Shown here one piece after another: positions 32,052 through 48,251 of a DNA stretch of 64,000 nucleotides. Positions within the stretch are counted from its first letter, which is position 1. Each line of letters opens with the position of its first letter. The DNA is taken from assembly GCF_041320605.1 (NCBI RefSeq), contig NZ_CP166679.1, positions 4,202,001 through 4,266,000 on the forward strand, read 5' to 3'. The translations under genes and the position numbers were made by a program. This stretch comes from Arenibacter antarcticus (GTDB taxonomy: Bacteria; Bacteroidota; Bacteroidia; Flavobacteriales; Flavobacteriaceae). The notes beneath the pieces are model-generated. The model searched no databases. It worked only from the letters and a program-made list of their open reading frames with translations, and was not told the DNA's origin.

Positions 32052-32633
32052 ATGAGCAAGCCAAAAGAATTTTGGATTAAGAATATGGTCTGTAATCGCT
32101 GCCTAAAAGTAATTAAGCAAGAACTACAGGAACTTGGGGTGTTGGTACTTTCATTAGAATTGGGAAGATTGTTAGTTGAAGCTCCGAATAAAACAAAAGA
32201 TGAAATTGTGAATATAATAACAACTGTTCTTCACGCAAATGATTTTGAAATAGTTCAGAACGAAAACGATATGCTAGTAGAAAGAATCAAAATTATTCTA
32301 ATAGGAGAATTGCAAGAATTACCCTTGCAGATTAAGGTGAAAACATCTGAGCTATTAGCATCAACTCTTCACAAGGATTACAAGGCTTTAAGTAAATTAT
32401 TTTCTGCTAATGAACAAACAACTATTGAAAAATACTTCATCAAATTGAAGATCGAAAAAGTTAAAGAGCTCATTCAGCTTAAACAATATTCCTTTTCAGA
32501 TATAGGATACTTATTGGACTACAGCAGTGTCAACCATTTGTCCAGGCAATTTAAAGAAGTAATAGGAGTGTGTATGACCGATTATAAAAACACAGAAAAT
32601 TGGAAACGAAATTTTTACGATGAAATTATATAG
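32052..32633 (+). CDS. AraC-family regulator with N-terminal HMA-like domain (second copy)
   Basis: 193 residues with the same architecture as the protein at 17532. It has KNMVCNRC near residues 11-18, a short alpha/beta domain, and an AraC region with LLDYSSVNHLSRQFKEVIG. The linker and target helices differ, so the two probably read different sites. It lies upstream of the long plus-strand operon and probably controls it. Metal sensing through CNRC is inference. Confidence 0.85.
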   Translation: MSKPKEFWIKNMVCNRCLKVIKQELQELGVLVLSLELGRLLVEAPNKTKDEIVNIITTVLHANDFEIVQNENDMLVERIKIILIGELQELPLQIKVKTSELLASTLHKDYKALSKLFSANEQTTIEKYFIKLKIEKVKELIQLKQYSFSDIGYLLDYSSVNHLSRQFKEVIGVCMTDYKNTENWKRNFYDEII

Positions 32634-32707
32634 ATAAAAACGAAAGTTATGCAGATAAGACTTCTGTACAAACAATAATTTTAATGTATTAACAAAAAAT
32701 AAATATT

Positions 32708-33217
32708 ATGAAAACACTAGTAATTATTTTATTAGCAATTGGGCTTTTAAGCTTAAATAGTTGCAAACAAGACACAGACATGCAGGCGATACTCCAAAAT
32801 TCAGAGTCAAGAACAGAACTTTTTGGGGCGATAGCCAGTAACCACATTTACATGACGGAATTCATGGACAACATGCAAGATAACGACCATGCCATGCAGA
32901 TGATACAGGGTAACCAAAAAATGATGGGTAATATGATACAGAGTGGCGGAATGCAAATGATGATGAAAGATAGCATGATGACGAAAAACATGATGCAGTC
33001 CATCATGAAAGATGGAAAGATGATGGGCAATATGATGCAAATGATGCACGACAAGGGCATGATGAGCGAAGACTGTATGGAGTCGTGCAAGAAGATGATG
33101 GGTGACAAAGGAATGGACATGAAAGGAATGGGCATGATCGAAGAAAATGAATTAGATACCAAAGAACTAGGCGAACTCGAATTGAGCAAAAGCCAAAGCC
33201 ATGGGGATCATCATTAG
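32708..33217 (+). CDS. Methionine-rich lipoprotein, probable Cu/Ag-binding
   Basis: 169 residues; the lipobox is LLSLNSC (Cys19). The middle (about 60-150) is extraordinarily rich in Met, Lys, Asp and Gly, with runs such as QMMMKDSMMTKNMMQ and MMGNMMQMMHDKGMM. Methionine clusters of this kind bind Cu(I)/Ag(I) in CusF, PcoC and SilE. Ends in SHGDHH. No fold is predicted apart from helix. First gene of the plus-strand operon. Confidence 0.85.
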   Translation: MKTLVIILLAIGLLSLNSCKQDTDMQAILQNSESRTELFGAIASNHIYMTEFMDNMQDNDHAMQMIQGNQKMMGNMIQSGGMQMMMKDSMMTKNMMQSIMKDGKMMGNMMQMMHDKGMMSEDCMESCKKMMGDKGMDMKGMGMIEENELDTKELGELELSKSQSHGDHH

Positions 33218-33250
33218 AGAAGATAACATTTAACGCTAAAAACAATAATT

Positions 33251-33523
33251 ATGAAAGGTCATTGGATATGGATGCTTATCGGTTGCGGTCTTCCGTTGCT
33301 ATTAATTTTTTTCGCCCCAGCATTGGGCTTCACTGGATATAACGGGCTTTTTGGTTTCATCATATTAATGTTCGTGTTTCATCTATTAATGCCCCACGGA
33401 TCACATGGTGGCCATGGTAGGCATAACAGTAGGGAGGATAATAATAAGCAACACGAACATGGTAAAGAAAAACCGCTGGCAGCAGAAACTAAGGACGAGC
33501 ATGAGGGGCATAGTCACCATTAA
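33251..33523 (+). CDS. DUF2933 membrane protein with His-rich tail
   Basis: 90 residues with two membrane helices (about 8-25 and 31-50) followed by a histidine-rich cytosolic or periplasmic tail (HGSHGGHGRHN, then EHEGHSHH). DUF2933 proteins are small and common in metal loci. The tail is a likely metal ligand. Same operon, 33 bases after the Met-rich gene. Confidence 0.8.
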   Translation: MKGHWIWMLIGCGLPLLLIFFAPALGFTGYNGLFGFIILMFVFHLLMPHGSHGGHGRHNSREDNNKQHEHGKEKPLAAETKDEHEGHSHH

Positions 33524-33532
33524 AATAAAAAA

Positions 33533-33751
33533 ATGACGAAACATACATATAGAATAAACGGAATAAGCTGTGGTGGATGTGTAACACGGGTCAAAAAAAC
33601 CTTGGAAGCACACCCGGACATTGAGAAAGCAGAAATCTTTTTGAACCCTAAAGGCAAGACAATCATCAGTATGAAAGAGAAACTTTCGGTAAAGGAATTA
33701 CAGAAGCAACTCAACCAAATTGAGGGCTATACAATTACAGAGATAATTTAA
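33533..33751 (+). CDS. HMA domain protein (copper chaperone-like)
   Basis: A 72-residue HMA domain with ISCGGC (metal site near residue 12-15), then VKKTLEAHPDIEKAEIFLNP. It is a second chaperone besides that at 14931 and is probably partner to the CopB-type ATPase downstream. Starts 9 bases after the DUF2933 stop. Confidence 0.9.
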   Translation: MTKHTYRINGISCGGCVTRVKKTLEAHPDIEKAEIFLNPKGKTIISMKEKLSVKELQKQLNQIEGYTITEII

Positions 33752-33778
33752 AATAGTAGTAACCTTAAAACAAAGAAT

Positions 33779-33997
33779 ATGTTCTATTACAATGGTTTTT
33801 TTTGGGGAATGCACCTTGTTTGGTGGTCAATTTGGTTAGTACTACTAGGCTGGGTCTTCTTTGCACCTACCAGTACGTCCTCCACTGAAACAAAGGAATA
33901 CGATTCAGTTACAATGCTGAAAATCCGGTTTGCAAAGGGTGAGATTTCCAAGACGGAATATGAGCAATCGAAGAAGCTTTTAAAATCGGAAAAATAA
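33779..33997 (+). CDS. SHOCT-domain small membrane protein (copy 1)
   Basis: 72 residues. One membrane helix (about 10-28: HLVWWSIWLVLLGWVFF) and a C-terminal SHOCT motif (MLKIRFAKGEISKTEYEQSKKLL). SHOCT segments are short oligomerisation motifs of many small proteins. The next gene is a tandem copy. Confidence 0.85.
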   Translation: MFYYNGFFWGMHLVWWSIWLVLLGWVFFAPTSTSSTETKEYDSVTMLKIRFAKGEISKTEYEQSKKLLKSEK

Positions 33998-34035
33998 TTC
34001 ATTAAAAATAAAAAATAATATTTAAAACTAAAACT

Positions 34036-34254
34036 ATGCATTATTTAAGCGATCACTTTGGCGGTATGCACTTTGTATGGTGGATCATTTGGTTCATCTT
34101 CTTAACATGGATATTTTTTGTTCCATATGACATCCCTTACCAAAAATCAAAAAATGAAGACCCGCTCGTAATTCTCAAAAAAAGATTTGCTAAAGGGGAG
34201 ATTACCAAAGAGGAATATGAAGATTCCAAGAAAACCTTAGAATCAATTAATTAA
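34036..34254 (+). CDS. SHOCT-domain small membrane protein (copy 2)
   Basis: 72 residues with the same layout as the gene before it (HFVWWIIWFIFLTWIFF helix; LKKRFAKGEITKEEYEDSKKTL). The shared length, helix and motif show a tandem duplication, now diverged. Thirty-eight bases separate the two. Confidence 0.85.
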   Translation: MHYLSDHFGGMHFVWWIIWFIFLTWIFFVPYDIPYQKSKNEDPLVILKKRFAKGEITKEEYEDSKKTLESIN

Positions 34255-34269
34255 CAAACATTAAAAATC

Positions 34270-34551
34270 ATGAATCGTATCAACGTAAAAAAATTCGGAT
34301 TTGCTTTTGGCCTAACAGGTGCCTTAATTTATCTAGGCTGTATGATTGTAATGACTACAACCGGTCAAGCGGGTACAATATTATTTTTCAACAGCCTATT
34401 ACACGGGTTGGATGCTACCAGTATTATAAGAATGGATGTACCGATATTGGAAGCATTCTTTGGAATTATTCAAACTTTCATCCTAGGGTGGCTTATTGGG
34501 GCTTGTATAGCGGCCTTTTACAACGTACAAATTAAAACCAAAAGAACATGA
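34270..34551 (+). CDS. Small membrane protein of unknown function
   Basis: 93 residues with two helices (about 8-32 and 62-85), the second rich in Gly and Ala (GWLIGACIAAFYN). No known domain recognised. Its stop overlaps the start of the GAPDH gene (ATGA), so the two are translationally coupled. Confidence 0.7.
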   Translation: MNRINVKKFGFAFGLTGALIYLGCMIVMTTTGQAGTILFFNSLLHGLDATSIIRMDVPILEAFFGIIQTFILGWLIGACIAAFYNVQIKTKRT

Positions 34552-35561
34552 AAAATATAGCAATTATAGGATATGGCGTCATTGGAAAAAGGGTGGCCGA
34601 TGCCATTAATCTACAAGACGACATGAAGCTTGAGGGAGTGTGCGATGTCATTAGCGATTGGCGCATACAGAACGCCGTACGAAAAGAGTATAATATTTAT
34701 GCGGCAACCGCCGAAGCTGAAATAGAAATGAATGCTTCCGGTATTTCGGTAAAGGGTAATATGAAGGATCTTTTGGATAAAGTGGACCTTGTGGTCGATT
34801 GTACCCCAAAAAAAATAGCGGCTCAAAATGTAAAAATCTATAAGGAAAAAGGCATCAAATTTATTGTCCAAGGAGGCGAAAAACACGAAACCACTGGTCA
34901 TTCCTTTAGTGCCGAAAATAATTATCAGTCGGCTATAAATATCGATGCTACAAGGGTTGTTTCCTGTAACACCACCTCCATCTTAAGAACATTGACTGCT
35001 TTAAAAAGGGCCGATTTATTGGATTATGCCAGAGGAACACTATTAAGAAGAGCTACAGATCCTTGGGAAAGCCATTTAGGTGGTATTATGAATACGATGG
35101 TTCCCGAAAAAGATATTCCGAGCCATCAAGGTCCTGATGCTAAAAGTGTTGATCCCGATTTAGATGTTATCACTACCGCAATAAAGGTACCTCAGACCTT
35201 AAGCCATATGCACTACTGGAACGTGAAATTGAAAAAACAGGCCACCAAGGAAGAAGTGCTTAATGCTTTTAAAACTTCTACACGGATTAAGTTAATTCAT
35301 TATGACCAAGGTTTGGTTTCCAACAATACTATTAAAGAAATGTTCTTAGATATGGGAAGACCTTGGGGCGATATGTATGAAGTAGCTCTCTGGGAAGATA
35401 TGCTGAAAGTGGTGGGCGATGAGCTTTTTTATGCTTATGTGGTAGATAACCAGGCGATTGTAATCCCAGAGACCATAGATGCCATTCGGGCACTTACCGG
35501 AATAGAAACCGATGCTCATAAGTCTATTTCTAAAACCAATGAAAGTTTAGGAATCCATTAA
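34548..35561 (+). CDS. Type II (archaeal-type) glyceraldehyde-3-phosphate dehydrogenase
   Basis: 337 residues. N-terminal Rossmann domain ([17 protein letters not shown]). The catalytic cysteine is C140 in [15 protein letters not shown] and a helical tail follow. The sequence is of the archaeal type II GAPDH family, not the bacterial GapA type I, with which it shares little. It interconverts glyceraldehyde-3-phosphate and 1,3-bisphosphoglycerate with NAD(P). Its ATG overlaps the stop of a membrane protein in the metal operon. A bacterial organism of this group would normally also have GapA elsewhere, so this is a second, acquired enzyme. Confidence 0.9.
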
Positions 35562-35572
35562 ACGCTATTATT

Positions 35573-36634
35573 TTGAAAACAGATATAAACATTACAGAGT
35601 TATTAGGGGAAAAGGCATCCTATTATATAGATCACGTTTGTGAAAAAATAACGAAAGATGAATTGCATATCCCCAGCAATAACAGTCTTGAGAAAGTATT
35701 TGGCAATAGCAACAGAAATCCGCAAGTACTACGAAGCCTTTCACAATTGTATAACCACGGAAATCTAGGTGGTACCGGCTACTTGAGTATTCTACCCGTA
35801 GACCAAGGTATTGAGCATAGTGCCGCATTGTCCTTCTACAAGAACCCTGATTATTTTGATCCTGAGAATATTATAAAATTAGCCATTGGTGCTGGCTGTA
35901 ACGGGGTGGCATCTACTTTTGGGGTTTTGGGCCTCCATGCCCGTAAATATGCTCATAAAATCCCGTTCATTGTCAAGATAAACCATAATGAACTCCTATC
36001 CTACCCCAATACCTATGACCAAACCTTGTTCGGAAAGGTTAGGGAAGCATGGAACATGGGTGCTGTCGCCATCGGGGCCACAATCTATTTTGGATCCAAG
36101 GAAAGCAAAAGACAGATAATGGAAATCGCGGCGGCATTTGCCGAAGCTCATAGCCTCGGAATGGCAACGATTTTGTGGTGTTACACCCGTAACGAGGCAT
36201 TTAAAACTGCTAAAGAAGATTATCACTCAGCTGCCGATGTAACAGGGCAAGCCAACCACTTGGGGGTTACCATTCAAGCAGATATTATCAAACAGAAACT
36301 GCCAACAAACAATTTCGGATTTAAAAAAATAGGATTTGGAAAATATGATGATGACATGTATGAAACGCTTACCACAGACCATCCCATTGATCTATGCAGG
36401 TTACAGGTAGCCAATTGTTATATGGGAAAAATAGGATTGATCAATTCAGGAGGGGCCTCCAAAGGCGAATCGGATTTGACCGAAGCTGTGACAACTGCGG
36501 TCATCAATAAGCGCGCCGGAGGTTCTGGTCTGATTTTAGGGAGGAAGGCATTTCAAAAACCACTTAGTAAGGGAATAGAATTATTGCAAAGCGTGCAAAA
36601 GGTATATCTGGAAAATAATATTACGGTGGCCTAA
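35573..36634 (+). CDS. Class I fructose-bisphosphate aldolase, archaeal/FbaB type
   Basis: 353 residues, starting at TTG 35573. It is a DhnA/FbaB-family TIM barrel: [11 protein letters not shown] at the phosphate-binding front, [22 protein letters not shown] and LINSGG near the phosphate loop. Class I aldolases use a lysine Schiff base and need no metal, unlike the zinc class II enzyme common in bacteria. Twelve bases after GAPDH, so co-translated. Both act on triose phosphates. Confidence 0.9.
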
Positions 36635-36711
36635 TTATAGGCCAAATTTAAGTTGACAAAAAAGAGCATAACAACTTATTTATAATATAAATAACTCGAA
36701 AACAATACATT

Positions 36712-37542
36712 ATGAAAAATATTCTTGTACCTACGGATTTCTCTGACAATTGTAATAAAGCCGCTGATTTGGGTATTGAAATGGCCAAACTTTACGATGC
36801 GGAAATCCATTTCTTTCACTTAATACACACACCTGTAGACTGGGTGAAATTAGATAAACTGAAGGAAAAAAAGTATCCAGATACCTTGAAACAAATAGGT
36901 GCAGCCAAATCCAAATTGCGAGAATTGGAAAAAAAAGCGGAAAAGCATGGTCTTAAGTGCCAGACTTTTTTGGAGTATAAGGTCGAAATCCGCAATATTT
37001 TAAGACATTCTGGTCATTTCGATCATGATTTTATTATAACTGGGAGTAGTGGCACCAGAGGTATCGTACGCGAACTCCAAGGCAGCAATGTTGAAGAAAT
37101 TGTGAGAAAGGCGGATGTCCCGGTAATTGTGGTCAAGGACCAAGAAATATCCTTTCCTTTCAAAGACATCGTTTTTGTTTCAGATTTTATTCAAGATGTG
37201 AGTGAAGCATTTAAACACGTTATTTCGATCGCTGAAAAATGTGGAGCGCATATCCATTTATTGAGGGTGAATACTCTGGCCGATTTCAACAGTATTGAAC
37301 AAGGTTTAAACCCCATTAGGGAGTTCCTTAAAAAATTCCCTGAGTTGGATAGGTACTCAATGAATGTTTATAATGAGTCTTCCGTAGAAACAGGTATAAA
37401 TAATTTCTTAGACTACAAGAATGCAGATTTGATCGCGATGTGTACTAGTGGACGTACAGGGTTTTTAAGCCTATTCTCAAAAAGTATCGCTGAAGGTGTA
37501 ACCAATCATTCCGAATTACCGGTGATGACCATTAAAGTATAA
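36712..37542 (+). CDS. Universal stress protein, tandem two-domain
   Basis: 276 residues with two Usp domains: 1-140 begins MKNILVPTDFSDNC and ends near VPVIVVKD; 145-276 begins FKDIVFVSDF and ends LPVMTIKV. The ATP-binding glycine motif is partly kept (GSSGTRGI; CTSGRTGF). It follows the aldolase gene by 77 bases. It is likely a stress-responsive ATP-binding protein; the partner is unknown. Confidence 0.88.
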   Translation: MKNILVPTDFSDNCNKAADLGIEMAKLYDAEIHFFHLIHTPVDWVKLDKLKEKKYPDTLKQIGAAKSKLRELEKKAEKHGLKCQTFLEYKVEIRNILRHSGHFDHDFIITGSSGTRGIVRELQGSNVEEIVRKADVPVIVVKDQEISFPFKDIVFVSDFIQDVSEAFKHVISIAEKCGAHIHLLRVNTLADFNSIEQGLNPIREFLKKFPELDRYSMNVYNESSVETGINNFLDYKNADLIAMCTSGRTGFLSLFSKSIAEGVTNHSELPVMTIKV

Positions 37543-37544
37543 TT

Positions 37545-38387
37545 ATGGATAAATCAGTTCTAATACAAAAATATTCCGGTGAGCACCAAGCTTTTGATGT
37601 AAACAAACTCATCAATTCCCTACGCCGCTCACGGGCGGATGAGGATATTGTTCAGGATATAGCCCGTAAGGTTCAAGAGCAGATTGAAGAAGGAATGACC
37701 ACTAAAAAGATCTATCAATTGGCATTCAAGATGCTAAAGGCTAAATCGAGGGTAAGTGCTTCAAAGTACAAGCTCAAAAAAGCCTTGATGGAACTCGGCC
37801 CAACGGGTTTTCCTTTTGAAAAGTTGGTAGGCAAACTATTGGCGCACGAAGGGTTTGCAACAAAGGTTGGTGTTATTGTACAAGGCAATTGTGTGCAGCA
37901 CGAAATAGATGTGATAGCCCTGAAGGATAATGATCATTATATGATTGAATGTAAATACCACAGTCATCAGGGTAGGTTTTGCAATGTAAAAACCCCCCTA
38001 TATATCCAGTCCAGATTTTTGGATGTGGAAAAACAATGGGAGCAAAAAAAAGACCATGAATCTAAACTCCACAAAGGAGGTGTGTACACCAATACGCGGT
38101 TTACCACCGATGCCATACAATATGGCACCTGTGTTGGATTGTTATTGACAAGTTGGGATTACCCAAATGGAAATGGTCTTAAAGAGCGAATAGATAAGTC
38201 TGGCCTACACCCGTTAACTGCTTTAACAACTATGACCAATGCTGAAAAAACTAAGTTGTTAGACCAAGGCATTGTGCTCTGCAAAGAGCTTCACGAAAAC
38301 CCTGCGTTATTGGAGCAGATAGGAATTGATAAAAAAAGACACGAAAAGATTTTAGAAGATTCAGAAGCCCTATGTAAAAGCACTTAA
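37545..38387 (+). CDS. ATP-cone / Mrr-like restriction endonuclease fusion
   Basis: 280 residues. Residues 1-90 are an ATP-cone (LIQKYSGEHQAFDVNKLINSLRRS and KKALMELGPTG). The next part (about 90-165) is a PD-(D/E)xK nuclease of the Mrr type: HEIDVIAL, then MIECKYH. The acidic-x-Lys triad is intact. The C-terminal 100 residues form helices unrelated to a DNA-binding domain I know. ATP-cones bind ATP/dATP, so nucleotide level might gate nuclease activity. Two bases after USP, so co-transcribed. Its substrate, DNA or RNA, is not known. Confidence 0.85.
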   Translation: MDKSVLIQKYSGEHQAFDVNKLINSLRRSRADEDIVQDIARKVQEQIEEGMTTKKIYQLAFKMLKAKSRVSASKYKLKKALMELGPTGFPFEKLVGKLLAHEGFATKVGVIVQGNCVQHEIDVIALKDNDHYMIECKYHSHQGRFCNVKTPLYIQSRFLDVEKQWEQKKDHESKLHKGGVYTNTRFTTDAIQYGTCVGLLLTSWDYPNGNGLKERIDKSGLHPLTALTTMTNAEKTKLLDQGIVLCKELHENPALLEQIGIDKKRHEKILEDSEALCKST

Positions 38388-38429
38388 GGATTATGGTTAT
38401 AAAAGTTTAACAATCTTAAATCAAAACTT

Positions 38430-38684
38430 ATGAAAACAGATAAACCGCAAGAACAGAACAATATAGATCTAGAGCTATTTTACCAGGCATTGGAAGATAA
38501 CCCAGAACTACTGGAAGATGCTTTTGAAACAATACTGGAGATGGTAAACTCCGAACCTAAATCCGCAAAGAAACTGGCCCTTCTTATCAAAGAAGACTTT
38601 CACGATCTGTACAAGGAAATAGCGGAGTTATGTACGTCGGACCAAGACAAAGGGAACACACCTGCCTGCTGCGGGGGACATTAA
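38430..38684 (+). CDS. Small acidic protein with CCGGH tail, unknown
   Basis: 84 residues, acidic helices (YQALEDNPELLEDAFETILEMV) and a final TPACCGGH. The CC-x-x-H end could ligate a metal ion. No family recognised. Same operon as its neighbours, 42 bases after the nuclease. Confidence 0.6.
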   Translation: MKTDKPQEQNNIDLELFYQALEDNPELLEDAFETILEMVNSEPKSAKKLALLIKEDFHDLYKEIAELCTSDQDKGNTPACCGGH

Positions 38685-38838
38685 TATTTGGCAACTGTGA
38701 AAGTGCGAACCCTAAAGCCGGTAAACAGGTGAATAAACACGAGTAATGGTTAAAAGGAAATAGTGATTCGTTATACAAGCAACAATAAGATTTTAGAAGA
38801 TTCCTAAGAATTATTTACAACAAGTTCAAACCAAAAAA

Positions 38839-40215
38839 ATGAAAAACAATAAAATAAGCATCCACTTTTTGGGAGCAGCAGGTACAGTAACAGGCTCAAA
38901 GTATCTAGTGGACACTGGAGATAGAAAGATACTGATAGACTGTGGACTTTTTCAAGGGTTAAAGGAATTACGTCTCAAAAATTGGGAATATCCGCCTGTG
39001 GAAGTTTCAGAAATTGATATGGTACTGCTTACCCACGGCCATTTGGATCATACAGGTTATCTGCCAAGATTGGTGAAATTAGGATTCAAAGGGCATATCT
39101 ACGGTACCAATCCTACTTTGGACATTGCCAAGATCATTTTGAACGATAGTGCAAAAATACAGGAGCAAGATGCTGAACGTGCCAATAAAGAAGGTTATTC
39201 CAAACACAGTCCCGCAGAACCGCTTTACGATTTAAAGGATGTGGAAAAAACCATTCCATGTTTTAAAGGAATCCCCCAATCCCAATGGATTCCTTTGTTT
39301 GATGGTATCAGGGCACGTTTCCAATATAACGGCCATATTTTAGGCGCCACCTACATCGAGTTGGAGGTGCACGGAAAACGCTTTGTCTTTTCAGGAGATA
39401 TTGGCAGGACCAATGATTTATTGCTTTATCCACCCCTGAAACCAAAAAAAGCAGATGTGCTTTTCATTGAATCTACTTATGGAGGAAGGTTTCATCCGGA
39501 TGAAGTGGAAGCCATTCCACGTATTGAAAAATTGGTCAATGAAACCATTAATAGGGGCGGCAGCCTGTTTATCCCAAGTTTTTCAGTAGAACGTGCCCAA
39601 CTAATGATGCTTATCTTCTGGAGATTACTGAAAGAAAAGAAAATTCCAAAAGTCCAGATGATAATGGATAGCCCTATGGGAGCCAATGTACTGGAACTGT
39701 TCCACCACACAAGGGATTGGCATAGGCTGAACGAGAATGAATGTGATGAAATGTGTTCGCACTTTACGGTGGTAAGCAGTTATCGGGAAACAATGGAATT
39801 ACGAACTGATGATAAACCAAAAATAGTGATTGCAGGAAGTGGAATGCTTACCGGAGGAAGAATGCTCAACTATCTTGAAACACAGGCGCAAAACCCTAAC
39901 AACACCTTACTATTCGTGGGTTATCAAGCGGAAGGAACGCGGGGCAGAAAATTGTTGGAGGGCGATAAGGAATTGAAAGTGTACGGAAAATGGGTGCCGT
40001 TCAAAATGCAAATGGCTGAAATTGAAGGTCTATCGGCCCACGCAGACCACGCTGAACTTATGGCTTGGATGAGCAAAATAAAAAATAAACCAGAGAGAAT
40101 TTTTATTGTACACGGTGAGAAAGAAGGTGCGGAAGCCCTGCAAAAAGGAATAGTGGAAACTTATGGTTGGAATGCTGAAATCCCGCAGCTCTACAACATT
40201 GAAGGAATAGAATAG
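38839..40215 (+). CDS. Metallo-beta-lactamase / beta-CASP RNA-processing nuclease
   Basis: 458 residues. MBL active site LTHGHLDHTG (HxHxDH) near residue 72, a second GHILGATYIE, then SGDIGR. The beta-CASP region follows with GSGMLTGG and LFVGYQAEGTRG. The C-terminal RNA-specificity (RMMBL) part contains GLSAHADHAEL and IFIVHGEKEG. This is a CPSF-73/YSH1-like RNase family member, not RNase J. It probably cleaves RNA. Starts 154 bases after the acidic protein, with its own plausible leader. Confidence 0.9.
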   Translation: MKNNKISIHFLGAAGTVTGSKYLVDTGDRKILIDCGLFQGLKELRLKNWEYPPVEVSEIDMVLLTHGHLDHTGYLPRLVKLGFKGHIYGTNPTLDIAKIILNDSAKIQEQDAERANKEGYSKHSPAEPLYDLKDVEKTIPCFKGIPQSQWIPLFDGIRARFQYNGHILGATYIELEVHGKRFVFSGDIGRTNDLLLYPPLKPKKADVLFIESTYGGRFHPDEVEAIPRIEKLVNETINRGGSLFIPSFSVERAQLMMLIFWRLLKEKKIPKVQMIMDSPMGANVLELFHHTRDWHRLNENECDEMCSHFTVVSSYRETMELRTDDKPKIVIAGSGMLTGGRMLNYLETQAQNPNNTLLFVGYQAEGTRGRKLLEGDKELKVYGKWVPFKMQMAEIEGLSAHADHAELMAWMSKIKNKPERIFIVHGEKEGAEALQKGIVETYGWNAEIPQLYNIEGIE

Positions 40216-40244
40216 GTTTTGGAAATCTTGAAAATTGAAACATT

Positions 40245-41747
40245 ATGGAACAACACTCAAACAATCTGAAATACAAGCATCTGGGCATTTATACCCAGAA
40301 CGAAAACGTGGTCTATATGCATAAAGATTGCCACGCCTGTATTTCCGAAGGCTTTGAAGCCCTAACAAGAATAAGGATCTCAAATGCAAGCCATTCTATC
40401 GTGGCAAGCCTAAACGTTATAAATTCTGATATGCTGTTGCCCAACGAAATAGGACTATCCGATGCGGCAGCAAATAAACTGAACATTTCCCAAAATGAGA
40501 CCCTGAATGTTTCACATTTGGAGCCAATTGAATCGTTAAGCCACGTCAGGGCCAAAATTTATAATCAAAAACTCGATTATAATGCTTATAGCCAAATTAT
40601 TACCGATATCGTTGAAGGCGATTATTCCAACATACACCTTTCCGCATTTATAACCGCCTGTGCGGGTGAACGGATGGATATTGATGAAATATCAGCCCTT
40701 ACCAAAGCAATGATCGCTTCGGGGAAGCAACTTAATTGGGACCAAGAAATCGTGGTGGATAAGCATTGTATTGGCGGATTGCCTGGAAATAGGACAACTC
40801 CATTAGTGGTTGCCATTGTTGCCGCTTATGGTCTAACGATGCCCAAAACATCGTCTCGAGCCATCACCTCACCCGCAGGTACCGCAGATACTATGGAAGT
40901 ATTGACCAATGTTACGCTTTCTTTAGAGGAAATAAAGACCGTAGTAGAGAAAGAAGGCGGATGTTTTGTCTGGGGCGGTACAGCTCAATTAAGTCCTGCA
41001 GATGACGTACTTATAAAAATTGAAAAGGCTTTGGATATTGATAGCGAAGGACAGCTCATCGCTTCGGTACTATCTAAAAAAGCAGCGGCAGGATCCACAC
41101 ACGTCGTTATAGATATTCCCGTTGGAGAAACCGCCAAGGTACGCAGTACGGGAATTGCCCAAAAACTAAAAAGCCACCTGGAAACTGTGGGTAACGCAGT
41201 GGGGCTTATTGTGAAAGTCGTGATTACAGATGGTACCCAGCCCGTCGGAAGAGGTATTGGTCCAACATTAGAGGCCATTGATATATTAAAAGTTCTAAAA
41301 AATGAAGGAGATGCGCCAAATGACCTAAAAGAAAGGGCATTGTTTTTGGCTGGGGAACTATTGGAACTTTCTGGAAAAATCGGAAAAGGAAAAGGAACAG
41401 AAACCGCCAAAGAAGTACTTAAATCTGGCAAAGCTTATGAAAAATTTCTCGCCATATGCAAAGCTCAAGGTCGTTTTACACTACCTGTTTTAGCTCCCCA
41501 TAAGGTTGAGATTAAAGCAGATAAGTCAGGCGTTATAAAGAGAATCGATAACAGGAAGATTGCAAAACTCGCCAAGCTTTCGGGTGCACCCCAATCAAAA
41601 TCTGCAGGGATTTTATTAAATGTTCATTTAGGGGAGAAAATTGAAAATAACCAGTTACTATACACTCTATACGCAGAATCCAAAGGTGAACTAAACTATG
41701 CCTTGGATTATAAAAACAACCACAACGACATCATAACCATAATTTAA
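40245..41747 (+). CDS. AMP phosphorylase (thymidine phosphorylase family, archaeal type)
   Basis: 500 residues with an extra N-terminal domain (about 1-80) absent from bacterial DeoA. It has the phosphate/nucleotide signature KHCIGGLPGNRTTPLV and PKTSSRAITSPAGTADTMEVL. Enzymes of this type phosphorolyse AMP (and CMP/UMP) to ribose-1,5-bisphosphate plus base. In archaea they feed the RuBisCO route via R15P isomerase; no isomerase or RuBisCO is visible here. 29 bases after the nuclease, which could supply nucleotides from RNA. Confidence 0.88.
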   Translation: MEQHSNNLKYKHLGIYTQNENVVYMHKDCHACISEGFEALTRIRISNASHSIVASLNVINSDMLLPNEIGLSDAAANKLNISQNETLNVSHLEPIESLSHVRAKIYNQKLDYNAYSQIITDIVEGDYSNIHLSAFITACAGERMDIDEISALTKAMIASGKQLNWDQEIVVDKHCIGGLPGNRTTPLVVAIVAAYGLTMPKTSSRAITSPAGTADTMEVLTNVTLSLEEIKTVVEKEGGCFVWGGTAQLSPADDVLIKIEKALDIDSEGQLIASVLSKKAAAGSTHVVIDIPVGETAKVRSTGIAQKLKSHLETVGNAVGLIVKVVITDGTQPVGRGIGPTLEAIDILKVLKNEGDAPNDLKERALFLAGELLELSGKIGKGKGTETAKEVLKSGKAYEKFLAICKAQGRFTLPVLAPHKVEIKADKSGVIKRIDNRKIAKLAKLSGAPQSKSAGILLNVHLGEKIENNQLLYTLYAESKGELNYALDYKNNHNDIITII

Positions 41748-41757
41748 AAAGTAGACT

Positions 41758-42651
41758 ATGAAAACTATATTATTCAGTCTTCCCGGAAATGAAGAACTCA
41801 CAGAATTACTGGCAATAAAAATGGATGCGGAAATCGGGGAATGCACTATACGTAAATTTCCAGACGGGGAATCCTATACTCGCATCCTTTCCGATGTAAA
41901 AGGTAAATGTGTGGTTATGGTCTGTACCTTACACGAACCTGACAAGAAACTTTTACCACTTTATTTTTTAAGCCATACTGCCAAATCATTGGGAGCTATG
42001 TGTACGTGTTTGGTTGCACCCTATTTGGCATATATGCGTCAGGACAAAGTATTTAATAAAGGGGAAGGAGTAACTTCTGGTTTCTTCGGAAAATTGATTT
42101 CAGGTTTTGCTGACAGCATAACCACTGTTGATCCTCACTTACACAGAATAAGTTCTTTGGATGAAGTCTATCACATTCCCAATAAAGTAATTCACGCTGC
42201 AGATGCCATTTCGGGCTGGATAAAGGAACATATTGAAAACCCAGTACTTATAGGCCCCGATTCCGAAAGCGAACAATGGGTTTCCGAGGTTGCTAAAACT
42301 GCTAAAGCGCCATTTATGATATTGCAAAAAATACGCCACGGTGACCGTGACGTGGAGGTTTCGGTACCGGATGTGGAAAAATACAAAAACGCCACCCCTA
42401 TATTGGTGGATGATATAATTTCCACGGCACAGACAATGATAGAAACTGTAAAGCATTTAAGAAAAATAGGTATGAAACCACCTATATGTGTTGGTATTCA
42501 CGCTGTATTTTCCGGTAATGCTTATCAGGATTTACTAGATTCTGGAGTAGAAAAGATAGTCACTTGCAATACCATTCCTCATCCTTCAAACGGAATTGAT
42601 TTAAGTGACATAATGGCAATGGAAGTTAAGAAATTGATGACCCATATATGA
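41758..42651 (+). CDS. Ribose-phosphate pyrophosphokinase (PRPP synthetase), divergent
   Basis: 297 residues. The PRPP-binding loop VDDIISTAQT is intact, with APYLAYMRQDKVF and TVDPHLHR shared with archaeal-type PRPP synthetases. It makes PRPP and AMP from ribose-5-phosphate and ATP. AMP is the substrate of the neighbouring phosphorylase, so the two could be linked. The genome should have a conventional Prs as well. Overlaps the next gene by 4 bases (ATGA). Confidence 0.88.
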   Translation: MKTILFSLPGNEELTELLAIKMDAEIGECTIRKFPDGESYTRILSDVKGKCVVMVCTLHEPDKKLLPLYFLSHTAKSLGAMCTCLVAPYLAYMRQDKVFNKGEGVTSGFFGKLISGFADSITTVDPHLHRISSLDEVYHIPNKVIHAADAISGWIKEHIENPVLIGPDSESEQWVSEVAKTAKAPFMILQKIRHGDRDVEVSVPDVEKYKNATPILVDDIISTAQTMIETVKHLRKIGMKPPICVGIHAVFSGNAYQDLLDSGVEKIVTCNTIPHPSNGIDLSDIMAMEVKKLMTHI

Positions 42652-43298
42652 GAAAACAAGGAATCTTACTAATTTTTATTTTATTGAGCATCACAATGAA
42701 TGGACAAACTGAAATGCTTATTGGGCAATTGTCCAATAGACTGGTGGTCCGGGAAAATTTTGATGAAGATGGCAATTTTCTGAACAGGCAAGCTTTTAAA
42801 GCGGGAAAGATTAAAGAATCCGATGGATATTATGAAATTGTTGTCGTGACCGAACTCTTTGATGAAAATGGTAACTCAACGGATAAATATAACACGATTT
42901 ACAAATGTAAACCAGATGAATCTAGTATCATGGTAATGGTATTTCCGTTTTTCAACCCAAAATCAAAAGAAACCGAAATCAACACCACCTCTAATAATTT
43001 TAAAGAACTCTATGATTTGGAGAATCTAGAAGACATAGAACTTGAAATGAGCTTTGATTCGGGATTACTGAATTTTTTTGGTTCAAAGAGTGTTATAAAA
43101 ATTTATCACCGAACATTAGAGTCTAGTACAGACAATAATGCCATTAAATCAAAAATCAATATAAAGGCATATGCGTTGGGAATACGTATAAAGCGACTCA
43201 ACTATGCCGTTATCGAAAAACTAAATACTAAGGGCTTATTGACCTTTCAAAAATTCACCGAAGAAGACGGGAGCTATTTTACAATGACCTATAAATAA
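42648..43298 (+). CDS. Secreted protein of unknown function
   Basis: 216 residues with an N-terminal signal sequence (IFILLSITMNGQ). The mature protein has no family I recognise. It is rich in Asp, Asn and beta-strand residues; the middle DLENLEDIELEMSFDSGLLNFFGS is distinctive. Translationally coupled to the PRPP synthetase gene. Confidence 0.65.
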   Translation: MRKQGILLIFILLSITMNGQTEMLIGQLSNRLVVRENFDEDGNFLNRQAFKAGKIKESDGYYEIVVVTELFDENGNSTDKYNTIYKCKPDESSIMVMVFPFFNPKSKETEINTTSNNFKELYDLENLEDIELEMSFDSGLLNFFGSKSVIKIYHRTLESSTDNNAIKSKINIKAYALGIRIKRLNYAVIEKLNTKGLLTFQKFTEEDGSYFTMTYK

Positions 43299-43302
43299 AA
43301 AA

Positions 43303-43597
43303 ATGAAAAATTATGATCCCCTTTCAGAAGCCATAAACAATCTCCAACAAAGAGGATATACTTGTGATTTCAACTTAAAACCTGAATGCTTGGGATTTGC
43401 TTCGATAAAAATAGTGATCCGCCCCGTAGATTTTAAAAGCGGATAATACCTATCGATTTGAAGGAATGAGCAGTACTGATGATAATAGTGTTATATATAC
43501 TATATCTTCAAAAGATGGAATTAGAAGATTTTTGGTAGATGCCCACAGAGTATATGCTGAGAATATCTCGGAAGAAATGCGAAAAGAATTACGTTAA
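43303..43597 (+). pseudogene. Small 'PRPP synthetase-like' protein family, frameshifted
   Basis: ATG at 43303 reads MKNYDPLSEAINNLQQRGYT and then stops at SG* at about 43446. One base later the next frame carries on as DNTYRFEGMSSTDDNSVIYT, ending ISEEMRKELR at a stop at 43597. Together they rebuild a ~97-residue protein of a small Flavobacteriaceae family (often named phosphoribosylpyrophosphate synthetase). An extra A in a run of four (about 43435-43438) explains the break. It is either a real frameshift or a base-call error. Confidence 0.75.
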
Positions 43598-43613
43598 CCC
43601 TTAAATATAAAAT

Positions 43614-45794
43614 ATGGACAATAACAAAGATCACAAAGACAAAAAAATGGACAATACTAAGATGAATCACGATAAGGGTGATCATTTGAAGATGGATCAT
43701 TCAAACCTGCCTGCCGGCAAGGCAGGAATGGACCATTCGAAAATAGAAGACCCAAAATCGGTTGACCATAGTAAGATGGACCACAGTAAAATGGATCATG
43801 GAGGCCATTCTGATCATAATCCAGGACACGGGAAAATGGGGCATGACCATCATGAAATGATGATCGCTGACTTTAGAAAACGGTTTTGGATAACGCTTGT
43901 ACTCACTATCCCTATCCTGATCTTCTCACCGATGATTCAGGGATTTCTCGGGTATGAATTCCTGCTTCCTGGGAACCAGTATATCCTATTTGCACTTTCC
44001 TCGGTGGTCTATTTCTATGGTGGGTGGCCATTTTTAAAAGGAATTTGGTCTGAAGTCAAAGAAGGTGCCCCTGGAATGATGACGCTTATTGCTATGGCCA
44101 TCACAGTCGCTTATGTATATAGTTCAGCAACGGTGTTTGGATTGGAAGGCATGGACTTCTTTTGGGAGCTCGCCACGCTAATAGCTATTATGCTTGTCGG
44201 TCACTGGATAGAAATGAGAAGTGTTTTAGGCGCTTCAAAAGCATTACAACTGCTAGTAAGCATGATGCCAGCCGAAGCACATCGGGTAAAGGGTGGTACC
44301 GTTGAAGTTATTGCACTGGAAGATTTATTAATTGATGACATCATTTTGATTAAGCCAGGAGAGCAAGTACCTGCCGATGGGATTATTGTAGACGGGTCAA
44401 GTTATTTGAACGAATCTATGCTCACCGGAGAATCGAAACCGGTAAAAAAAGAAATGAATGATAAAGTAATTGGAGGTTCGGTAAACGGCAATGGCAGCTT
44501 AAAGGTAAAAGTAGAGCATACGGGAAAAGACAGCTACCTTAACAAGGTTATCACCATGGTAGAGGAAGCCCAAAAGACCAAATCTAAAATGCAAAATCTT
44601 TCCGATAGAGCTGCAAAATGGTTGACTTATATGGCCTTGGCCATTGGTTTCGGAACACTGGCAGTCTGGTTGATTCTTGGGTTTCCATTTGTATATGCAT
44701 TGGAAAGAATGGTTACCGTTATGGTCATTGCTTGTCCTCACGCATTAGGACTAGCCATACCTTTGGTTGTTGCAATTTCTACATCAGTATCTGCACAAAA
44801 CGGATTGTTGATCCGTAATAGGACTGCCTTTGAAGAATCTCGTAAAATATCTGTACTGATTTTTGATAAGACGGGAACCCTTACCAAAGGGGATTTTGGG
44901 GTAACCCGTATTAAATCTGTAGATGAAAAATTTCCGAAAGAGGAAATATTACGGCTTGCTAGTGCATTGGAACAAAGCTCGGAACATCCTATTGCCACAG
45001 GAATCATTAAAAAAGTCAACGAAGATAAAATTACCATCCCAAAGCCTGAAAACTTTAATGCGATTACAGGTAAAGGCGTGGAGGCAAATGTAGAAGGTAA
45101 GCAGGTTAAAGTGGTTAGTCCTGGATATTTAAGGGATGAAAACATTTCCATTCCCGAAGATGCTTATAGTGATGCTGCTGAAACTGTTGTATTTGTTTTA
45201 ATTGACGGACAGCTAGTTGGATATATTGCCCTAGCTGATGAAATAAGACCAGAATCTGCCGAAGCTATAAAAGTATTCAAAAAGAACAACATCAAAGTCT
45301 TTATGGCTACTGGTGATAACGAAAAAACAGCTAAAGCGGTAAGCGATAGTCTTGGTCTGGATGGATACTATGCTGAAGTATTACCGCATCAAAAGGTTGA
45401 ACTAGTAGAAAAATTTCAGAACGAAGGAGAGTTTGTAGCTATGACGGGAGACGGGGTAAACGATGCACCTGCTTTGGCTCAGGCAAACGTTGGTATTGCC
45501 GTAGGTTCTGGTACAGACGTAGCTGCAGAAACAGCAGATATTATTCTCGTAAACAGTAATCCTCAAGATATTTCCAACTTGATTTTATTTGGTAAAGCGA
45601 CCTACAAAAAAATGATTCAGAATCTAATCTGGGCAACAGGATATAACGTTGTAGCTATTCCATTAGCCGCTGGAGTTCTCTATTCTTATGGTTTTGTTTT
45701 AGGTCCAGCAGTGGGAGCTGTTTTAATGAGTTTGAGTACCATCGTAGTTGCTATCAATGCTCAATTATTGAAAAGGAAAATCGGTAAAAAGTAA
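43614..45794 (+). CDS. copB: CopB-type Cu P-type ATPase with His/Met-rich N-terminus
   Basis: 726 residues. Residues 1-85 are packed with His, Met and Asp (KMDHSKMDHGGHSDHN). The transport motif is CPH (374-376, VIACPHALGLAIPLV), typical of CopB pumps, instead of the CPC of CopA. Phosphorylation is at D418 (DKTGTLTKG) and there is TGDGVNDAPA. CopB-type pumps are reported for Cu(II) and Cu(I)/Ag(I) export. It does not have an HMA domain. A seven-residue insert LPAGKAG (32-38) comes from a palindromic repeat. Followed directly by the MFS-PLD gene. Confidence 0.95.
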   Translation: MDNNKDHKDKKMDNTKMNHDKGDHLKMDHSNLPAGKAGMDHSKIEDPKSVDHSKMDHSKMDHGGHSDHNPGHGKMGHDHHEMMIADFRKRFWITLVLTIPILIFSPMIQGFLGYEFLLPGNQYILFALSSVVYFYGGWPFLKGIWSEVKEGAPGMMTLIAMAITVAYVYSSATVFGLEGMDFFWELATLIAIMLVGHWIEMRSVLGASKALQLLVSMMPAEAHRVKGGTVEVIALEDLLIDDIILIKPGEQVPADGIIVDGSSYLNESMLTGESKPVKKEMNDKVIGGSVNGNGSLKVKVEHTGKDSYLNKVITMVEEAQKTKSKMQNLSDRAAKWLTYMALAIGFGTLAVWLILGFPFVYALERMVTVMVIACPHALGLAIPLVVAISTSVSAQNGLLIRNRTAFEESRKISVLIFDKTGTLTKGDFGVTRIKSVDEKFPKEEILRLASALEQSSEHPIATGIIKKVNEDKITIPKPENFNAITGKGVEANVEGKQVKVVSPGYLRDENISIPEDAYSDAAETVVFVLIDGQLVGYIALADEIRPESAEAIKVFKKNNIKVFMATGDNEKTAKAVSDSLGLDGYYAEVLPHQKVELVEKFQNEGEFVAMTGDGVNDAPALAQANVGIAVGSGTDVAAETADIILVNSNPQDISNLILFGKATYKKMIQNLIWATGYNVVAIPLAAGVLYSYGFVLGPAVGAVLMSLSTIVVAINAQLLKRKIGKK
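43706..43726. repeat. Dispersed GC-rich palindrome inside the CopB gene
   Basis: Arms CCTGCC and GGCAGG flank the core TGCCGGCA (with one extra A). It adds LPAGKAG in frame to the Met/His-rich linker. Similar GC-rich palindromes are common in Bacteroidetes genomes. A worn relative gives PHAGRAG in the multicopper oxidase at about 24300. Confidence 0.75.
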
Positions 45795-48251
45795 ATGAAT
45801 AGAAAAGGAAAACTCAACAAGATTTTTTTAGTCTTGTTGAGTTTATTTATTGTGATGCTCGGGTACGGTATTTTATTGCCTACCCTCCCCTACTATACCG
45901 AAAAATTAGCTTTAAAAGGAAATCTGGACACAGATGTAATCAACTTCCATATCGGAATGTTAACCGGTGTTTATCCGCTGTTCCAGCTCTTATTTGTGAT
46001 TGTTTGGGGAAAGCTATCCGATAAATATGGTCGCAAACCCCTAATTGTAATTGGTCTCATCGGGTTTGTAGTGATGAACTTGTTAACGGGTCTGGCCACT
46101 TCCCTCACGATGCTTTATATAGCCCGAATCATAGGGGGTATATTTACATCATCGGTCATTCCGGTCAGCAATGCTTATTTAAGTGATATCACTTCGGAAA
46201 AACGACGGACCAAGATAATGGCCTGGTCAGGGGTAGCAATAAGTTCGGGCCTTATTTTCGGCCCTGTTTTAGGAGGATTGCTATCACAAACCAACTTACA
46301 CTTTAAATACTCTTTTTGGGTGTTTCATTTAGACCGTTTTGCGGTTCCATTTATTTTAGCAGCTCTTTTGGGATTTGTAGTATTACTGATAATCTTAAAA
46401 TGGTTGAAGAATATTAAAATAGAAAGTCCTACTGTCTCAAAGGTGGTTAAATTCAGCTTTTCACTGAGTAAATATTTTATCGTTTTATTGCTTCTATCCT
46501 TTGTGATGCAGTTTGTGGTCACCCTATTTGAGACCGTGTTTTCAATTTATGGGAAGGATGAGTTGGGATTTACAAGCAACCAGGTGGGTATTGGTTTTAT
46601 GCTTTGTGGTTCGGTAATGGCAGTTTTGCAACCTGTGTTCGCAACCTATGGTGAAAGAATACTGACCTCAAAGCAACAGATAACGCTGGGGTTGTTGATA
46701 TCTGGAGTTGCGTTAATTGTGTTTCCTTTCGTAAGCAATGAGCTTTACGTTTATCTTACGATAGTAATTTTCGCGAGTGGGGGCGCCATGGTAACCCCAA
46801 ATCTGCTTTCGGCAGTTTCATTGATCTCCAAGGAAAACACGGGCAGGAATATATCCATACAAAGTTCCACGAATAGTATCGGTCAAATTTTGGGTCCGGT
46901 ATTAGGAACTTGGCTAATTGCAGGTGGTTTTTATTATCCATTTATAATTGCCGGATCAACCGTTTTGGGCGCTATGGGACTGGTTTATTTTTTGAAGCAA
47001 CAAAATAAAGTGATCAATGGGGCTTTATTGGCCAATCAACAAAAAAAAACAGTAGCTATGGATCATAAATCTACAAGTAAAGGACCTAATAAAATGGCAT
47101 TTCAAAATGTTGCCGACAATGTTAAATATGTTGAGTTGGTACATTCGGGAGAAGACTATTTTATGCGGTTAAAAAAATTAATAGATAATGCAGAAGATAT
47201 AATCCATTTACAGACCTATATTTTTGAGAACGATGAAACTGGAAACCGTATAGCCTCCTCTTTAAAAGAAGCCGTACAACGAAATGTTAAGGTATTTGTC
47301 CTATTGGACGCCTACGGTAGTGCAGCATTGCCCGATCGTTTTGTACAGGATTTGGTGCAGCATGGTATTTTTATTCGTTTTTTCTCGCCTTTATTATCGT
47401 TGAACAATTTTTATATCGGCAGACGGATGCACCATAAAATTATAGTCATCGATGAAAAACTAGCTTTGATAGGTGGAATCAATATTGCCGATAAATATCG
47501 CGGAAACTTAGCCTCGGCACCTTGGTTGGACTATGCCGTTCAGTTGAACTGCCCGGCAGCCATGAATCTTCAAAAACTGTGTAGCGATTATTTTTTCAAA
47601 AAAGGAAACTCAAAAAAAATCCCGCCTGTCTTACATTCTGCCGGTACTGCACTTGTTGGTATTTTACAAAATGATTGGCTAAAGCGAAAAACAGAGGTCT
47701 GCGATTCCTATACGAATGCCATACTTCAGGCCGAACAGGAAATAATTATCGTAGGCTCGTATTTTTTACCAGGAAGCAGATTGGTAAAAGCACTGAAAAA
47801 TGCCAGTGAAAGGGGAGTGAAAACAACAGTGATCCTAGCTAGCATTAGCGATGTGCCTTTGGTGCGTAAGGCAACCGAACATCTGTATTCGTATTTTCTA
47901 GGCCATCATATGAGAATCTATGAGTGGAACAAATCCGTAGTGCATGGCAAAGTGGCAATGGTTGATAATAAATGGTCCACTGTAGGCTCATTTAACCTGA
48001 ACAGTCTTAGTTGCTATGGCAGTATTGAAATGAATGTAGAAGTTCACTCTGTCGAATTTGCCGAAAACCTTCGCGCTGACCTTGAAAAGGTTATAAACGA
48101 GTGTACCGAAGTGACATTAGTTGCACTAAAAAAAAGAGAAAATTTAATCAGTAGGTCTTCAAATTGGGTTTCCTATCAAATGGTACGGTCAACCATGTTT
48201 TTTCTTACCTTTCTTCCACATTTAAGGATTTTTAAAAATTACAGGTTTTAA
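45795..48251 (+). CDS. MFS transporter fused to a phospholipase D/cardiolipin synthase domain
   Basis: 818 residues. Residues 1-405 are an MFS transporter of 12 helices (VIVWGKLSDKYGRKPL is the loop 2-3 signature; AYLSDITSEKRRTK). A linker (405-440) leads to a phospholipase D-like half with two HKD sites: HHKIIVIDEKLALIGG near 546-563 and HGKVAMVDNKWSTVGS near 716-733. YFLPGSRLVKALKNASERGV is typical of cardiolipin synthase. The start codon directly follows the CopB stop codon. A lipid transporter coupled to lipid synthesis is one reading. Two genes joined by a deletion is another, but the frame is clean. Confidence 0.88.
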   Translation: MNRKGKLNKIFLVLLSLFIVMLGYGILLPTLPYYTEKLALKGNLDTDVINFHIGMLTGVYPLFQLLFVIVWGKLSDKYGRKPLIVIGLIGFVVMNLLTGLATSLTMLYIARIIGGIFTSSVIPVSNAYLSDITSEKRRTKIMAWSGVAISSGLIFGPVLGGLLSQTNLHFKYSFWVFHLDRFAVPFILAALLGFVVLLIILKWLKNIKIESPTVSKVVKFSFSLSKYFIVLLLLSFVMQFVVTLFETVFSIYGKDELGFTSNQVGIGFMLCGSVMAVLQPVFATYGERILTSKQQITLGLLISGVALIVFPFVSNELYVYLTIVIFASGGAMVTPNLLSAVSLISKENTGRNISIQSSTNSIGQILGPVLGTWLIAGGFYYPFIIAGSTVLGAMGLVYFLKQQNKVINGALLANQQKKTVAMDHKSTSKGPNKMAFQNVADNVKYVELVHSGEDYFMRLKKLIDNAEDIIHLQTYIFENDETGNRIASSLKEAVQRNVKVFVLLDAYGSAALPDRFVQDLVQHGIFIRFFSPLLSLNNFYIGRRMHHKIIVIDEKLALIGGINIADKYRGNLASAPWLDYAVQLNCPAAMNLQKLCSDYFFKKGNSKKIPPVLHSAGTALVGILQNDWLKRKTEVCDSYTNAILQAEQEIIIVGSYFLPGSRLVKALKNASERGVKTTVILASISDVPLVRKATEHLYSYFLGHHMRIYEWNKSVVHGKVAMVDNKWSTVGSFNLNSLSCYGSIEMNVEVHSVEFAENLRADLEKVINECTEVTLVALKKRENLISRSSNWVSYQMVRSTMFFLTFLPHLRIFKNYRF

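Follow-up and report, generated by a model that had tools for sequence, protein, structure and literature searches.

A 64,000-nucleotide stretch of the genome of Arenibacter antarcticus (contig NZ_CP166679.1, forward-strand positions 4,202,001 to 4,266,000; hereafter the window, to whose first letter all coordinates refer) holds, at 32052 to 48251, a single co-directional block of plus-strand genes that combines copper genes and a putative copper sensor with alternative enzymes of central metabolism. We delineated this block, hereafter the array, from the list of open reading frames (ORFs) and from family matches; the host genome is one contig of 4.69 Mb. A sequence-only reading of the same DNA had bounded the array at 32708 to 48251. 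The array is real but larger, as its gene run begins at 32052 (to 32633) with a regulator, an AraC-type helix-turn-helix (HTH) protein with an N-terminal MxCxRC motif that scores over the cut-off of HTH_18 and under that of HTH_AraC. Behind it lie a methionine-rich protein with a signal-like N terminus (32708 to 33217) and a histidine-rich, probably membrane-bound protein (33251 to 33523), both recognized by eye and without a family match, then an HMA metallochaperone-like protein (33533 to 33751; PF00403), a SHOCT-like small protein under the cut-off of PF09851 (33779 to 33997), a second SHOCT small protein that matches PF09851 (34036 to 34254), and a DUF5676 protein with two transmembrane segments (34270 to 34551; family match). 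As the sequence-only reading had described, these small metal proteins run directly into metabolism, the end of the DUF5676 gene overlapping the start of a type II, archaeal-type glyceraldehyde-3-phosphate dehydrogenase (GAPDH-II) by ATGA at 34548. After the class I aldolase that follows, the order is universal stress protein (USP), ATP-cone nuclease, 84-aa protein, beta-CASP nuclease, phosphorylase, phosphoribosyl pyrophosphate (PRPP) synthetase-like protein (PRS), 216-aa protein, copper ATPase, and a joined MFS-PLD protein; USP and beta-CASP had earlier been placed behind the phosphorylase and PRS, which they in fact precede.

Profile matches confirm GAPDH-II, class I aldolase, PRS, beta-CASP nuclease, USP, and copper ATPase, all named beforehand from the letters alone; scores are given here in bits against each model's curated cut-off. 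GAPDH-II (34548 to 35561) exceeds both NF003251 (446.3 against 185) and TIGR01546 (334 against 232.9), and its alignment to 1cf2 places a cysteine at the catalytic position, Cys140. The class I fructose-bisphosphate aldolase (FBA; 35573 to 36634) scores 631.5 against 327 for NF006707; it aligned only locally with 1ojx, and the Schiff-base lysine was not resolved with confidence. The phosphorylase (40245 to 41747), a member of the thymidine phosphorylase family, exceeds NF003338 (689 against 434) and TIGR02645, and among solved structures its sequence comes nearest to 4ga5 and 4ga4, which we take to be an archaeal enzyme. For the earlier label of AMP phosphorylase, TIGR03327 (AMP_phos) gives 498.3 against 535; because this model was missed and the broader ones were exceeded, we call the protein only nucleoside monophosphate (NMP)-phosphorylase-like. 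The PRS-like protein (41758 to 42651) belongs to subfamily NF005537 (391 against 322). The catalytic motifs of PRS are RQD, HxHR, KxR, and DD, and their residues are invariant in 109 sequences, the window's included; all 109 also share a GPDxE loop, followed by serine in 106, at which the protein differs from the 1u9y sequence. The P1B ATPase (43614 to 45794; TIGR01511, 620 against 397) has its CPH motif at residue 374 and packs 14 histidines and 10 methionines into its first 90 residues. A CPH motif and a histidine-rich N terminus define CopB-type P1B ATPases, and we presume that the window's enzyme is one of them. Elsewhere the genome retains other copies of the metabolic enzymes, namely three Gp_dh_C genes, a second PRS, and class II aldolase matches at two places.

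The array is conserved far beyond this strain. A scan of genome contigs for the phosphorylase yielded 97 relatives, of which 80 loci, the closest of them nearly all from Flavobacteriaceae, were kept with flanks cut at 10 kb. PRS is present in 79 of these loci, and in 79 it is also the next marker after the phosphorylase; the CPH ATPase, the beta-CASP nuclease, and the 216-aa protein occur in 76 each, the ATP-cone protein in 75, USP in 72, the 84-aa protein in 66, lactate dehydrogenase (LDH) in 53, GAPDH-II and FBA in 40 each, and phosphofructokinase (PFK) in 39. The sequence-only reading had held that a gene order unique to this strain would speak against it; the order ATP-cone, beta-CASP, phosphorylase, PRS, 216-aa protein, (PPK2), CPH ATPase is instead kept in 72 of the 80 loci, across many genera. 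Early counts of the small metal proteins were low because the 10-kb flanks cut the array. We fetched upstream DNA for 39 of 40 chosen loci, mostly those in which the array ran off the flank (one genome, with little contig, was left out), and found GAPDH-II in 39, FBA and NDH-2 in 38 each, DUF5676 and the second SHOCT protein in 36 each, the HMA protein in 34, the histidine-rich protein in 33, the methionine-rich protein in 28, the regulator in 27, and a divergent CusA in 15; the small metal proteins thus occur in most of the 39, and we rejected the idea that they are a rare local addition. We likewise rejected mutual exclusion between phosphoketolase and the Embden-Meyerhof-Parnas genes (GAPDH-FBA-PFK), as the four phosphoketolase loci that were extended also have GAPDH-II and FBA. 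Nine arrays, taken from those of the 39 on the contig plus strand and joined from overlapping stretches, are co-directional blocks of 20 to 33 kb, eight of them free of any opposite-strand ORF of at least 100 aa and seven free of gaps over 250 bases. NDH-2, PFK, and LDH are present in fuller copies, some of which also have phosphoketolase/acetate kinase, GlgP, or PPK2; the window's run gave no match to NDH-2, PFK, or LDH and looks like a shortened version of an array found mostly in Flavobacteriaceae. Allomuricauda profundi has two arrays on one contig (L061 and L071, with identities of 81% and 77%).

The phosphorylase itself is sporadic: of 296 genomes from the window's phylum, its own included, 4 have it, as do 45 of 398 genomes of Pseudomonadota (including Marinicella pacifica, the centre of the draw) and 162 of 72,556 plasmids. 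The core order recurs in Sphingobacteriales, in Membranihabitans (Saprospiria), in Marinicella, and in a verrucomicrobial metagenome-assembled genome (MAG), and a Cyclobacterium MAG has the array from the beta-CASP gene onward to the point where its contig ends; assembly contamination is possible in these cases. Among 48 places in Pseudomonadota, 45 loci and that of Marinicella were fetched, and two were passed over, one for lying at a contig edge and the other for its in-frame stop; PRS is present in 40 of the 45, several of the stretches being short. The phosphorylase genes of two genomes (G002 and G557) each have one in-frame stop, reflecting decay or sequence error. Seven of eight phosphorylase plasmids read, from 60 listed, carry an annotated copper/heavy-metal ATPase, multicopper oxidase, or Cus-type RND pump; that of Criblamydia has the RND pump only, that of Sphingobium has no annotated metal gene of these kinds, and both of these, like that of Legionella fallonii, carry phosphoketolase.

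GAPDH-II, too, is associated with metal genes. It occurs in 14 of the 296 genomes of the window's phylum (its own included), and in 12 of them the nearest TIGR01525 heavy-metal ATPase over the cut-off lies within our limit of 13 kb, against a chance expectation of 0.039 per genome on average; one of the others has the ATPase at 19 kb, and the last has its gene on a short contig. The corresponding binomial value of 7e-14 is overstated, because the 14 genomes fall in five families. In Pseudomonadota, GAPDH-II occurs in 3 of 398 genomes (E up to 1e-40), each time within 13 kb of the phosphorylase, and two of these cases are independent, as Marinicella was the chosen centre, picked for having the array. 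Among plasmids, GAPDH-II is found on 35 records, 19 of which are among the 60 listed of the 162 phosphorylase plasmids, where chance would give 0.08 if all 162 were placed randomly and plasmid size were ignored. We inspected 10 of the 35 plasmid regions, picked for diversity, and found a heavy-metal or copper ATPase annotated in the flanks of seven (two Rhodococcus, Corynebacterium, Pseudarthrobacter, Meiothermus, Methylocystis, and Hoeflea); a Mycolicibacterium plasmid has a multicopper oxidase only and a Methylophaga plasmid HMA and DUF5676 proteins, both stretches being cut by the record end. Phosphoketolase, FBA, PFK, or GlgP also lies close to GAPDH-II in several of these regions. On the Bradyrhizobium plasmid p1S06B a 33%-identical GAPDH-II has no metal ATPase beside it; its neighbors are prs, epimerase, and aconitase-like genes, which may form a biosynthetic cluster. 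The metal linkage of GAPDH-II holds even for genomes that yielded no phosphorylase, and GAPDH-II is paired with metal genes in other gene orders in Actinomycetota and Deinococcota. A survey of unrelated bacteria had been proposed from the letters alone: the linkage to metal genes recurs there, while the exact gene order does not extend outside the Bacteroidota-type loci.

The head of the array offers a putative link to copper sensing. The regulator has both an MxCxxC-type motif and a DNA-binding domain, all 30 sequences compared share its MxCxRC motif without change, and by eye its N terminus looks HMA-like, all of which makes it a possible copper sensor. Upstream of it, at 31304 to 31321, lies the palindrome ATATGAC-N4-GTCATAT, a candidate operator. 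Its general form, ATATGAY-N4-RTCATAT, is present in 6 of 30 distinct upstream regions, namely the window's and those of five related loci (two of them near-identical), and the 2.76 Mb of related loci contain 5 sites against 0 in 5 Markov-null runs. Within the array, a search for Bacteroidota-type promoters gave 1 match against 0.94 expected, and a sigma-70 scan found 68 against 62.1 expected. To the left, family matches define a divergent metal block on the minus strand (12451 to 31173) that includes YceI, an HMA-bearing P1B ATPase, an AraC-type HTH protein, a CusB-like protein, DUF305, a multicopper-oxidase-like protein under its model's cut-off, an outer-membrane efflux protein, CusA, and a small exported protein. 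Between this Cus block and the array, at 30757 to 31880, are two divergent small exported proteins, one of which matches HYC_CC_PP and the other of which is alike by eye. To the right, at 49115 to 52310, two tyrosine recombinases (by family match) lie on opposite strands with a small protein that is HTH-like by eye, and the array is probably mobile.

The USP (36712 to 37542; PF00582) contains two USP stretches. The protein that follows (37545 to 38387) joins an ATP-cone, just under its cut-off, to a PD-(D/E)xK-like nuclease domain, and its predicted model resembles AF1548 (1y88; Foldseek E 7.5e-14, TM-score 0.54 by query); because of this likeness and because D122, E135, and K137 are invariant in 32 of 32 sequences, it may be a nucleotide-sensing nuclease. 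An 84-aa protein with a CCGGH tail (38430 to 38684) separates it from the beta-CASP metallo-nuclease (38839 to 40215; family match, HGHLDH motif), whose closest solved sequences are Cas14, TTHA0252, and then CPSF-type proteins; we rejected its identification as the Cas14 of type VII CRISPR, for which NF045584 gives 390 against a cut-off of 800. The 216-aa protein (42648 to 43298) has a signal-like N terminus and a model of pLDDT 79.7, the best of whose weak fold matches is a putative Bacteroidota lipoprotein (4fvs, TM-score 0.45), with LolA matching weakly (TM-score at most 0.34 by query). Between it and the CPH ATPase lies a frameshifted remnant of a 97-aa gene (43303 to 43594), which is open in relatives and whose ORF cluster occurs in 67 of the 80 loci. 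The array ends with an 818-aa ORF (45795 to 48251) in which, by family matches, an MFS transporter is joined to a PLD/cardiolipin-synthase-like domain; in some relatives the two are separate ORFs.

We consider it an even bet that this DNA carries a shortened version of an array, probably a mobile one, in which a putative copper sensor and copper pumps are coupled to alternative enzymes of central metabolism, which would serve as a backup when Cu(I) poisons the housekeeping set. Cu(I) prevails at low oxygen, and because of this such a backup would probably matter most there. Binding of Cu(I) or Ag(I) to the MxCxRC motif of the AraC-type regulator would switch on transcription of the array; the CPH ATPase would export the metal together with the divergent Cus system; and GAPDH-II, the class I aldolase, and the PRS-like enzyme would replace poisoned GapA, class II aldolase, and Prs. 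RNA turnover by the beta-CASP nuclease could supply nucleotides to the phosphorylase, and the resulting ribose-1,5-bisphosphate could enter PRPP synthesis or energy metabolism. With NDH-2, PFK, and LDH, supplemented in some cases by phosphoketolase/acetate kinase or PPK2, the fuller copies might generate ATP with little respiration. Published work gives this proposal part of its footing. The inhibition of standard GAPDH by copper, which the sequence-only reading had taken as known, is documented for Staphylococcus aureus GapA, which is inhibited by Cu(I) and Ag(I) and which, together with the aldolase Fda, goes up under copper in one medium (PMC6350627); S. aureus Prs is inhibited by Cu(I) in vivo and in vitro, and higher prs expression brings higher copper tolerance (PMC10249872). 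The array therefore duplicates two enzyme types, GAPDH and PRS, that are documented Cu(I) targets. NMP phosphorylases yield ribose-1,5-bisphosphate (R15P), and suppression of prs loss in Escherichia coli has been proposed to proceed via the step from R15P to PRPP catalyzed by PhnN (PMC9700705). By analogy with that route one could imagine a bolder scheme, which we rate as unlikely: a transmissible metal-resistance determinant with a replacement central metabolism, in which pumps would be joined to two Cu(I)-proof routes, one yielding ATP from sugar and the other PRPP from nucleotides, the latter including conversion of the phosphorylase's R15P to PRPP by the GPDxES-type PRS-like enzyme so as to bypass poisoned Prs.

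Several observations weigh against the copper backup. The catalytic cysteine of GAPDH-II, aligned with 1cf2, is kept in 68 of 68 sequences; GAPDH-II has 3 cysteines, against 3, 5, and 2 in the genome's three GapA-type copies, and the PRS-like protein has 7 cysteines and 12 histidines, where the second PRS of the genome has 4 and 10. Copper tolerance is thus unsupported by composition, neither enzyme having fewer metal-binding residues than the other copies. In S. aureus, over-expression of gapA brought no gain in copper tolerance, and Fda went slightly down under copper in a second medium (PMC6350627). The Pfam search of the regulator at E 0.001 returned solely HTH matches and no HMA domain, and the shortfall of the phosphorylase against the AMP_phos model belongs with these points. 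A P1B ATPase (CPC or CPD motif) is present in only 6 of the 45 Pseudomonadota loci, and the other 39 have none in the fetched stretch. The relatives' PFK, LDH, phosphoketolase, acetate kinase, and PPK2, moreover, favor a respiration-independent energy supply at least as much as they favor the copper backup. These last points feed a rival for which we allow a real, though minority, chance: a low-oxygen or dormancy energy module, built for fermentation and nucleotide recycling and equipped with USPs, that merely travels with copper genes and does not take copper as its signal. Relatives carry PFK, LDH, and USPs, and some phosphoketolase, acetate kinase, GlgP, or PPK2. In Bradyrhizobium diazoefficiens, 0.5% oxygen raises both transcript and protein of bll3115-bll3117, a trio alike by annotation (metallo-beta-lactamase, PRS, and thymidine phosphorylase family), yet the trio is not marked as a FixK2 target in the available part of the source (PMC6515984), and the Burkholderia lxa locus, again likened by annotation, combines a metallo-beta-lactamase-family protein, phosphate acetyl/butyryl transferase, phosphofructokinase, and USPs (PMC6127331). 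The 45 Pseudomonadota loci contain 23 FNR-like boxes and 40 control stretches contain 8, a difference with p 0.011 when sites are counted; when loci with any site are counted instead, 11 of 45 compare with 7 of 40 controls (p 0.60), and we judge the support for FNR control of these loci weak. The plasmid loci have 3 such sites against 0.5 expected, the 80 Bacteroidota-type loci 4 against 14.7 expected, and the window none. Two findings speak against a mere traveling companion: in the Bacteroidota loci the module runs on unbroken into metal genes and the CPH ATPase, and GAPDH-II shows its metal linkage also where no phosphorylase turned up.

Two further explanations are less likely. Mobile elements might repeatedly have captured separate stress operons side by side, with no joint function; the sporadic distribution of the phosphorylase, the recombinases beside the array, plasmid carriage, and modular variation in content all fit such accretion. 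The core order shared by 72 of 80 loci of many genera, the short gaps, and the pairing of GAPDH-II with metal genes across phyla in differing orders nevertheless argue for selection, and we find accretion decidedly unlikely. More improbable still, indeed barely credible to us, is scavenging of RNA and nucleotides for carbon in the manner of the archaeal NMP shunt, unrelated to stress: the likeness of the phosphorylase to 4ga5/4ga4, the beta-CASP nuclease adjoining it, and a PRS in 79 of 80 Bacteroidota-type and 40 of 45 Pseudomonadota loci would suit it, but pumps and a possible metal sensor are present, and neither R15P isomerase nor Rubisco is among the families named at the loci, a statement made with no targeted search and with one listing covering 25 of 57 families. 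The metal-tolerant bypass that the sequence-only reading had proposed thus gains from the recurring metal linkage, from the possible copper sensor, and from GAPDH and PRS being Cu(I) targets, and gains nothing from cysteine and histidine composition. We regard it as plausible but unproven, because the catalytic cysteines persist, 39 of 45 Pseudomonadota loci are without a P1B ATPase, and low oxygen induces the Bradyrhizobium trio. That metal tolerance alone accounts for the module is not established.

How glycolysis and the supply of PRPP continue when Cu(I) poisons GapA and Prs is an open question on which the array may bear. We recognized no description of it in the literature searched, a search of limited extent; the families of its parts are known, and it is their combination, conservation, and recurrence that appear new. 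With the copper and silver resistance islands (Cus, Cop/Pco, copBL) the array shares a P1B ATPase, a Cus-type RND pump, a multicopper-oxidase-like protein, an HMA protein, and, probably, mobile carriage. Classical islands of this kind carry export and detoxification. The array differs in adding isozymes of central metabolism to the same gene run, and because similar pairings of pumps and enzymes recur in several bacterial groups, some islands of this type may provide poisoned cells with a backup metabolism. Mobile carriage is exemplified by copBL, which is located in the staphylococcal ACME (PMC10249872). The Burkholderia cenocepacia lxa locus resembles the array, by annotation, in uniting its metallo-beta-lactamase-family protein, phosphate acetyltransferase, PFK, and USPs in one locus, but the available part of its description names no copper gene (PMC6127331); the Bradyrhizobium trio likewise shares three annotations under consecutive tags, but no GAPDH-II or copper gene is tabulated beside it in the part of the source available (PMC6515984). 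The archaeal NMP shunt, or pentose bisphosphate pathway, has the phosphorylase family in common with the array (PMC9700705). In the array, however, the partner is PRS-like instead of R15P isomerase and Rubisco, neither of which was noticed nearby, with no targeted search made. GAPDH-II is commonly considered an archaeal enzyme; its repeated occurrence close to metal pumps across several phyla would point to a function in bacteria as well. Replacement of a metal-sensitive glycolytic enzyme has a reported parallel in the metal-independent phosphoglycerate mutase variants of S. aureus; that case concerns metal starvation and a single enzyme, whereas the array would concern metal excess and a set of enzymes. 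If the array's isozymes are tolerant, metal resistance would include a mobile bypass of metabolic targets, comparable to the bypass of drug targets.

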